A stretch of 64,000 nt of DNA from Lentisphaerota bacterium. Its GTDB lineage: Bacteria > Verrucomicrobiota > Lentisphaeria > Victivallales > UBA1829. The DNA is taken from positions 62,001 through 126,000 of the forward strand of contig SUVR01000003.1 in assembly GCA_015061915.1 (NCBI GenBank). Reading direction: 5' to 3'. Each line of letters starts with the position of its first letter. The stretch's first letter is position 1. This document shows, piece by piece, positions 44,553-49,566 of the stretch. A model generated the notes under the pieces. The model did not search any database and was not told the origin of the DNA. It saw only the letters and a list, made by a program, of their open reading frames with translations. A program made the translations under genes and the position numbers.

Positions 44553-44773
<221 letters not shown>

Positions 44774-47160: not shown

Positions 47161-49566
47161 TCACCGGATGATCGTTTTGACGGAGCCGGGGATGCTTTCC
47201 GGGGCGAGAGCAGGGTTCCGGGAACAATCCAGAAAATCCAGAGCCATACCGTTCAGTACGGAAAGATCCCGGAGTTTGTTGCCGGAGCAGTCCAGCCACC
47301 GGAGCGACTTCATTTTCCGGATGTCGCCGAGTTTTTCCAGATTGAGACCGGACAGGTCGAGCCAGGTCATTTTCTTTCCGGCAGAGGAGTTTGCCAGCAG
47401 ATTGAGAAAACGGAGCGCATCTTCCGGCGGCAGATCCTGTCGCGGCATGGCAAGAAGCTGGATCAGCACCGGATTTTCCGGCTGTTCTTCCATGATTTTT
47501 TCGGCGGAATCCAGCGCCTGCCGGTAATTTTTCCGGTTCCATTGGAACAATGTTTCATGGGTGGCGATTTCGGCTTTCCGGGTGAACGCGGGCGCTTTTT
47601 CAATGATGGCAGTGACACGCTGCCGGAGCAACGGAGTGTTCGCCAACTGGATGGCAGAGAGACGGCTTGCATTTGTAAGTGCCTGATCTGCAAAGCCCTC
47701 GTTCGGATAAAGTCGGGCAATGGAAAGATATTCTTCCAATGCCTGCCGGTAAAGCCCTTCTTCTTCCAGAAGTGACGGGCGGATCAGCGGGGGAGGGGAG
47801 TTCGGCACGGTCTGACGGAGCAGCTTGATCTCCTGCACTGTGACCGGTGCCTGAAGAGAACGGATCCCGATACTGTACCGGTCCGGTCCGCCGGAGAGCA
47901 GCAGATCGGTCGTTTCCAGCAGGGGTGTTCCCGTTTCGTTCTGCCCTTCATAAATCCGGATCCGGTTTCCCTCTTTGACCAGTATCAGGGAGAATTTTCC
48001 GGTCAGACATTCTTTTTTTGCAACAGCCAGCGGGATCTGCCCTGCTCCGGTGGTGATCATTGCCCAACCACCTTTTCTGTTCAGACGGAGGGCATACCCC
48101 GGAGGGCAGCTGTTTTCGTCATTGAGCGGGGTATTTTCTGCGGCGAATACCACATCAATTCCGGTTTCGACCGGTGCGGAACAGGAGATCTGCAGCTTCA
48201 TACTGCCGCTGACGGCACGATTCAGCCACAGCCATTCCCCGGTATTCAATAAAATATTGCCGGAACTGTTGCGGCGGAGCGGGCGTTTTGCCCGGTTACC
48301 GGGTGCCTGCAGCAGAAAATCCGTTTCTTCCTGAAAATCGGCGGTAAAGACATCCCGCCACTCGGTCATATCCCGGTTGTACTGCAGAAATACATAGACG
48401 GACCCGACAGCCCCGAAGAACATGGCGATCGCCAGAAGAACCGTCAGGAGCAGGTGCCGGCGAAAGAACAGGACCGTTTTTTTGGCGATGGATGCCTTTT
48501 CTGCCAGCGTGGCATAGCCGCCGATAAAGGCGTTGACCTCGTTCCGCAATTCTTTCACCGACTGATAGCGATCTGCCGGATTCAGACTCATGGCTTTCCG
48601 GATGACTGCTTCCACGCCTGCGGGGATTTCCCGTTCCGGCGCACGCAGGGAAGGGGGCGTGATCTTGCCGGTAAGGGTGGCTTCGATCCGGTCTCTGACA
48701 TCTTTTTCTTCCAGCGGATCTTTCCAGGTCATTAGAGAGTAGAGGATCGCCCCCAGAGAATAAATATCGGTCCGTTCATCCCGTGCGCTGTTTTTTCCAG
48801 CCGCCTGCTCCGGCGCCATATAGCCCGGCGTTCCCTTCATAATGCCGTCAAGCGTACCGCTTCCGAACCCGGAAATCTTTGTTTCTGTGTTGAAATCCGG
48901 CGTTTCAGGGGCATTCAGGTGATCCCGTACCTTTGCCAGTCCCCAGTCCATGATCAGCACTTCACCGAAATCACCGACCTGGATATTTTCCGGCTTCAGG
49001 TCAAGATGGATGACGCCTTTGGAATGGGCAAATGCCACACCGCTGCAGATCTTGAGAAAGATCCGCAAAAGCCGGATCGTGTTGTATTCCGCATTGAATT
49101 GTTCATTGCCTTCCGCCAGTTTTGCGATCAAAGCGGCAAGCGTGCCGCCCCGGAGCAGCTTCATTGTATAATAGGGAGCCCCTGTGGAGTCGATACCGAT
49201 CTCATGGACAGGAACGATGTTGGGATGTTCCAGACTGGCGGTGATCCGTGCTTCCTCGATGAAGCGCACCAGATCTTCCCGGGGACGGGTCGGTGCTTCC
49301 GGAAGGACTGCCATCGCCACATCGCGGGTCGCATCCAGGTCCTTCATCTGCAGAACCATTTTCATCCCGCCACGACCGATACTGCGGACAAAACGGTATT
49401 TCTGGACCGGTTTGACAGACAGACGGTCGATGGAGCCGGTATCCAGCTCCAGATTTTCCCGGTCAAGCTGTTTTTCCGGGTTGTTATTACCATCGGTCGG
49501 CAGTTCAAATTCCACTGCTGCCATTTCCACGGTCGCACCGGGCAGATTTTCGCTGGCGTTGTTCAT
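47161..49566 (-). CDS. Ser/Thr protein kinase, transmembrane, with TPR/LRR-like sensor region
   Basis: The ATG at 49566 has an AAGGAG site 9 bp upstream. 801 residues. The kinase domain (about 57-350) has IGRGGMK in the glycine loop, the catalytic loop HLDLKPEN (H187, D189, K191, N194), DWG in place of DFG (207-209) and an APE motif (251-253). The beta-3 position normally held by lysine is alanine (VAMAV, A86), while K69 lies in the loop 17 residues earlier, as in eukaryotic WNK kinases. A membrane helix (371-393) leads to an extracytoplasmic part with a beta-rich domain, TPR-like helices and C-terminal leucine-rich repeats. Divergent from the pseudopilin gene. Confidence 0.92.
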   Translation of the reverse strand: MNNASENLPGATVEMAAVEFELPTDGNNNPEKQLDRENLELDTGSIDRLSVKPVQKYRFVRSIGRGGMKMVLQMKDLDATRDVAMAVLPEAPTRPREDLVRFIEEARITASLEHPNIVPVHEIGIDSTGAPYYTMKLLRGGTLAALIAKLAEGNEQFNAEYNTIRLLRIFLKICSGVAFAHSKGVIHLDLKPENIQVGDFGEVLIMDWGLAKVRDHLNAPETPDFNTETKISGFGSGTLDGIMKGTPGYMAPEQAAGKNSARDERTDIYSLGAILYSLMTWKDPLEEKDVRDRIEATLTGKITPPSLRAPEREIPAGVEAVIRKAMSLNPADRYQSVKELRNEVNAFIGGYATLAEKASIAKKTVLFFRRHLLLTVLLAIAMFFGAVGSVYVFLQYNRDMTEWRDVFTADFQEETDFLLQAPGNRAKRPLRRNSSGNILLNTGEWLWLNRAVSGSMKLQISCSAPVETGIDVVFAAENTPLNDENSCPPGYALRLNRKGGWAMITTGAGQIPLAVAKKECLTGKFSLILVKEGNRIRIYEGQNETGTPLLETTDLLLSGGPDRYSIGIRSLQAPVTVQEIKLLRQTVPNSPPPLIRPSLLEEEGLYRQALEEYLSIARLYPNEGFADQALTNASRLSAIQLANTPLLRQRVTAIIEKAPAFTRKAEIATHETLFQWNRKNYRQALDSAEKIMEEQPENPVLIQLLAMPRQDLPPEDALRFLNLLANSSAGKKMTWLDLSGLNLEKLGDIRKMKSLRWLDCSGNKLRDLSVLNGMALDFLDCSRNPALAPESIPGSVKTIIR

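Follow-up and report, generated by a model that had tools for sequence, protein, structure and literature searches.

A glycine-loop lysine coupled to alanine at the beta3-lysine position in receptor-type kinases of PVC bacteria

The lysine on strand beta3 is a textbook diagnostic of active protein kinases, and genome surveys discard kinases that lack it. A preliminary description of the window studied here (the whole stretch of DNA analysed, 64,000 nucleotides) drew attention to a kinase with alanine at this position, Ala86, and with a lysine, Lys69, in its glycine-rich loop. This raises the question of whether such a protein is a dead kinase, or an enzyme whose ATP site has been rewired in the way known from the eukaryotic WNK kinases.

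The lysine swap and its gene

Translation of the gene and the alignment of its relatives confirmed the Lys69/Ala86 swap in the kinase encoded at 47161-49566 (Table 1). Lys69 is contained in the Gly loop GRGGMK and Ala86 in VAMA, at the place of the lysine in VAIK-type motifs, with a separation of 17 residues. With MAFFT, GRGGMKMVLQMKDLDATRDVAMAVL could be aligned to WNK1 over 25 letters without any gap, such that K69 corresponded to K233 and A86 to C250; the WNK1 sequence used for this purpose was checked and is identical to PDB chain 5w7t. The spacing and the equivalence to Lys233/Cys250 of WNK1, as originally proposed, are therefore exact. In the comparison with both WNK and PknB-like kinases, a check that had been suggested at the outset, the positions matched WNK1 and the profile of the clade was nearer to PknB. 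A degenerate codon pattern for the swap had one match in the window against 0.00 expected in shuffles, and relatives in many genomes carry the swap, which together rule out chance or a sequencing error.

The AF2 model of residues 44-360 (pLDDT 91.4, pTM 0.90) has K69 where beta2 begins, A86 on beta3 and E105 on alpha-C, and the nearest solved folds to the kinase domain are those of PknB. For the ectodomain, a Pfam search gave no match in the N-terminal part, a weak match for the TPR stretch (TPR_14, E 0.05), and a match for the C-terminal leucine-rich repeats that was just short of the cut-off (LRR_4, E 5.5e-6). The neighbouring genes encode a ribF-type FAD synthetase, a MerR-type protein, a pilin-like N-methylated protein, a PRA isomerase and a type III pantothenate kinase, and suggest no operon function for the kinase gene. 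Elsewhere in this neighbourhood, a perfect (CTTG)21.5 tetranucleotide array occupies positions 44578-44663, flanked by the MerR-type gene and by ORFs for small membrane proteins. Repeats of this type are prone to slippage and the array could be phase-variable; it is positioned outside clear genes.

Table 1. Features of the kinase gene, with positions in the window
Feature	Position	Strand	Remarks
Receptor-type Ser/Thr kinase gene, 801 aa	47161-49566	-	ATG start, AAAGGAG ribosome-binding site upstream; Pfam Pkinase E 2e-32
Kinase domain, residues 56 to about 353	48508-49401	-	Pfam Pkinase; AF2 model; nearest solved fold PknB
Lys69 codon, third Gly of GxGxxG, start of beta2	49360-49362	-	Invariant, 154/154 swapped rows
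Ala86 codon, beta3-lysine position	49309-49311	-	Ala in 154/154 swapped rows
Glu105, alpha-C glutamate	49252-49254	-	Glu in 154/154 swapped rows
HLD, residues 187-189; HRD Arg replaced by Leu, catalytic Asp retained	49000-49008	-	
DWG, residues 207-209, metal-binding motif	48940-48948	-	
Transmembrane helix, residues about 372-394	48385-48453	-	Hydropathy 2.4-2.5
Predicted extracytoplasmic region, residues 397-801	47164-48378	-	TPR-like stretch, then C-terminal leucine-rich repeats

Coupling of residues 69 and 86 among relatives

Of 61 genomes, 51 gave homologues at E 1e-40 in a search for relatives, the best full-length ones being 41-43% identical to the kinase. The homology-only set consisted of 31 rows with K69/A86 and 47 canonical rows, plus three fragments without both columns. 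None of the distinct rows was discordant: lysine at position 69 always came with Ala86, and the 47 rows with Lys at position 86 carried another residue at 69 (40 Gly, 5 Ala, 1 Ser, 1 Thr). This association is highly significant in a test that ignores the kinship of the rows (Fisher, 2e-22), and in the same set K69 and A86 were the sole two columns that discriminated perfectly between the groups (JS divergence 1.0).

Scanning 84,980 species genomes for the degenerate codon pattern yielded at least 119 matching stretches. According to their record names, the matches listed originate from Lentisphaerota (73), Verrucomicrobiota (17), Kiritimatiellota (15), Planctomycetota (9) and records with no assigned phylum (4); this is apart from L105, a non-kinase that we rejected as a chance match. 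For one further locus, L077, the translation yielded no readable frame. Two further matches from the phylum scan, in genomes G136 and G117, also look like chance. The homology set and all pattern loci were combined into an alignment of 154 distinct rows with the swap, and each of these relatives with Lys69 had Ala86. The swap thus occurs in Lentisphaerota, Kiritimatiellota and Verrucomicrobiota, and rarely in Planctomycetota. Individual genomes can hold many copies: in Lentisphaera marina (G186, from which L076 comes) the swapped type accounts for 15 of the 19 pattern-matched kinases, which represents a large expansion, and Lys69 patterns matched 10 times in G445 and 12 times in G481.

For the coupling itself, patterns were used in which residue 69 could be Gly or Lys and residue 86 could be Ala or Lys. 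A scan of 145 Verrucomicrobiota genomes gave 39 K..A and 11 G..K stretches, and six cultured-strain genomes (Rhodopirellula rubra, Planctomycetes bacterium CA13, Pontiella sulfatireligans, Lentisphaera marina, zth2 and Rubritalea profundi) gave 25 K..A and 60 (G or S)..K stretches, with no discordant case in either scan. Pooled, this amounts to 64 swapped and 71 canonical kinases and 0 discordant ones, meaning that kinases with both lysines or with neither were absent from these 145 plus six genomes. A reversed control pattern had 0 matches in the genome scans. When Lys69 was fixed and residue 86 left unconstrained, 92 of 95 matches had Ala and one had Gly, the other two being not kinase-like; Lys or Cys at position 86 was found in none of the 95. 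Both lysine codons, AAA and AAG, are used at 69 and all four alanine codons at 86. Since the synonymous codons vary while the encoded residues are fixed, the two positions are under purifying selection. The K69/A86 swap is therefore a fixed trait of the whole family and not the oddity of a single gene.

Catalytic residues and the proposed ATP site

The preliminary description regarded the catalytic loop HLDLKPEN (residues 187-194) and DWG as otherwise intact. This holds for the aspartate, the asparagine and DWG, but not for the loop as a whole, because the HRD arginine is Leu188. Residue 188 was Leu in 140 swapped rows, Phe in 7, Met in 2, Tyr in 1 and Ala in 1, and never Arg, against Arg or Cys in most canonical rows. 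It is the third-best discriminating column after 69 and 86, and the loss of the HRD arginine accompanies the swap across the whole clade. The other catalytic residues are retained: besides Glu105, the swapped rows have D189 in 151/151, N194 in 150/150, D207 in 149/150, the alpha-F Asp267 in 144/144 and Arg333 in 137/138, and the activation-segment GT and APE residues (Gly245, Thr/Ser246 and Pro252-Glu253) are near invariant. Residues 207-209 read DWG in 147, DFG in 2 and VWG in 1 of the 150 swapped rows scored, so that residue 208 is Trp in 148 and Phe in 2. Gln, His or Asn predominates at residue 196 (window 48979-48981), the usual adenine-floor position, in place of Met or Leu; with a polar residue here in most swapped kinases, nucleotide recognition may also be different.

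The strict coupling of residues 69 and 86, together with the conservation of the other catalytic residues, fits an active rewired enzyme and not a decaying pseudokinase, which supports the original suggestion of a rewired ATP site. On this basis, we consider it likely, with a probability of roughly 0.8, that the family consists of active protein kinases in which Lys69 has taken over from the beta3 lysine, a WNK-type solution reached by convergence, which the clade would have acquired once and independently of WNK. We infer the geometry between Lys69 and ATP, the enzymatic activity and the mode of regulation as follows. In a membrane-anchored receptor kinase, the lysine that binds the ATP phosphates would have moved from beta3 (Ala86) to the Gly loop, where beta2 begins (Lys69). 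There, Lys69 most likely enters the space left by the beta3 lysine, for which the small Ala86 would make room, and touches the alpha and beta phosphates, while pairing with the alpha-C Glu105 as Lys233 of WNK1 does with Glu268. Asp189, Asn194 and Asp207 would perform the usual catalysis and metal binding. Leu188 in place of the HRD arginine suggests activation without the usual contact between this arginine and a phosphate on the activation loop; the swapped enzymes would thus be non-RD kinases, in which control by activation-loop phosphate may differ.

The protein could instead be a conserved pseudokinase that binds a nucleotide or a partner without phosphotransfer, with K69 having a structural role only. 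Neither the beta3 lysine nor the HRD arginine is retained, and bacterial kinases without the K-D-D triad are commonly classed as non-functional (for the definition of a pseudokinase, see PMC12599244); a survey of PVC bacteria accepted a kinase as functional only with the K-D-D sites in place (PMC11032199), and by that standard the swapped clade would be set aside as dead. We nevertheless regard this explanation as unlikely. While the lysine is missing from beta3, the catalytic and metal-binding aspartates are not missing, the alpha-C Glu, the Mg-binding residues, GT, APE and the alpha-F Asp hardly vary among the 154 rows, and the compensating Lys69 is invariant. We reject decay into a pseudokinase on account of these conserved catalytic residues. 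Degenerate paralogues among the DWG kinases have the opposite pattern: in L199 and L244, both from genome G039, the beta3 Lys is present and it is N, D or DxG residues that have been lost, as in genuine, ordinary pseudokinases.

Even if the enzyme is active, another basic residue or an altered mode of metal or ATP binding might do the work, with K69 as a mere covarying helper. The clade-specific changes near the pocket (M85, Leu188, Pro131 and Gln/His/Asn196) do indicate a wider redesign. K69 apart, however, no position near the pocket has become both basic and invariant across the clade, the columns of K69 and A86 alone discriminate perfectly, and a separate swap in a planctomycete kinase (L254, see below) has its lysine at the same position with HRD retained, which makes this explanation very improbable. 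A more speculative extension of Lys69 replacing the beta3 lysine, and one that we think rather doubtful, is that the pocket freed by the change from Lys to Ala serves, like that of WNK, as a regulatory site for an ion or a small ligand across the PVC clade, in which case lysine relocation would be a repeated route to sensing within the pocket.

Origin of the swap and comparison with known systems

In a tree built without columns 69, 86 and 188, the swapped rows sit inside the canonical PVC DWG kinases. A tree constrained to place them in a single clade exceeded the one from the free search by 29.3 lnL units (p-AU 0.83), and these data fit a single origin of the swapped kinases from PknB/PknD-like PVC kinases. 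One canonical sister, the receptor kinase L041 (G044:C372), has GGMG..VAMK and HRD, yet has an ectodomain in common with the swapped receptors (E 1.6e-169), which points to a direct canonical ancestor of the same receptor architecture. Since the swap looks like a single event, the many concordant sequences measure maintenance of the swap and not its repeated origin. A search of plasmids returned generic kinases alone, from Streptomyces and others.

Membership of the true WNK family, by acquisition from eukaryotes or as an ancestor of theirs, would account for the identical lysine position and spacing but can be dismissed, as the clade profile scored 122 bits for WNK1 versus 244 bits for PknB, WNK1 was placed on a long branch outside the PVC kinases and PknB, the nearest folds are PknB, and the clade, with Ala for Cys, HLD for HRD and DWG for DLG, is nested in canonical PVC kinases. 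The likeness to WNK is therefore convergence, and evolution seems to have reached the WNK-style solution independently in this bacterial group. A Planctomycetota kinase (L254/L263; G319:C97:25938-26483) reads GGMK..VALG, so that residue 69 is Lys and residue 86 is Gly; its HRD and DFG motifs are retained, and all 20 of its 20 scored homologues are canonical with Gly/Lys. It appears to show a second, separate bacterial swap of Lys and Gly, although as one sequence it should be treated with care. Counting the swapped clade, L254 and WNK, there would be about three independent swap events.

A large bacterial clade and a separate planctomycete swap offer natural replicates for how catalytic residues move, which bear on the accompanying changes, such as that from the HRD Arg to Leu, and on a possible conversion of the vacated site into a sensor. 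The swap can be tested in members available in culture (Lentisphaera marina, Pontiella sulfatireligans, Rhodopirellula rubra and Rubritalea profundi), with L041 as a good ancestor-like comparison and L199 and L244 as a useful pseudokinase contrast. Our literature search found no report of a WNK-like lysine relocation in bacteria; this search did not cover the 2025 atlas of bacterial STKs (PMC12233097), and priority is therefore uncertain. Relocated lysines are already known in WNK, POMK and CAK-chloro.

In WNK1, the beta2 lysine, Lys233, replaces Lys72 and is required for activity, while the beta3 position is occupied by Cys250 (PMC4718504, describing Xu 2000 and Min 2004). The swapped kinase resembles WNK in having Lys at the third glycine of the Gly loop, in the 17-residue spacing, and in retaining the alpha-C Glu and the Asp, Asn and Asp residues. 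It differs in being a bacterial receptor type, in having Ala instead of Cys on beta3, in the absence of the HRD arginine (R348 in WNK1, Leu188 here), and in Trp208 of DWG where WNK1 has L369 of DLG. With Leu in place of the HRD Arg and a polar residue 196, the pocket is also unlike that of WNK1. The chloride site of WNK1 includes Leu369 of DLG, and the L369F mutant is insensitive to chloride (PMC13397483). Since this leucine is Trp in the swapped kinases, WNK-style chloride sensing is not expected, and a chloride site of the WNK type is unsupported; Trp in DxG is also common in the canonical sisters of the clade.

The canonical beta3 lysine is likewise missing from the bacterial pseudokinase families ActPs2, DYD and DLHK, for which ATP binding through other basic residues has been proposed, in a review that mentions no Lentisphaerae, Verrucomicrobia or Planctomycetes (PMC12599244). 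Unlike the swapped clade, these families come from other phyla and have Arg at beta3 or have lost parts of HRD/DFG, and none is described with Lys at the third glycine and Ala on beta3. In POMK and CAK-chloro the positive charge is displaced from beta3, in POMK to the G-loop (PMC12599244, PMC1821047). These are different families, and POMK is without the alpha-C Glu that is invariant in the swapped clade. Closest in sequence and fold are PknB and PknD, which share the order of kinase, transmembrane segment and ectodomain, with the DWG PVC kinases as the sister group. What separates the swapped kinases from these PknB/PknD-like relatives is GGMK..VAMA with HLD, as opposed to GGMG..VAMK with mostly HRD or HCD. 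Judged by its sequence, the kinase belongs to a variant subgroup of the PVC receptor Ser/Thr kinases, with Ala86 in place of the canonical beta3 lysine.
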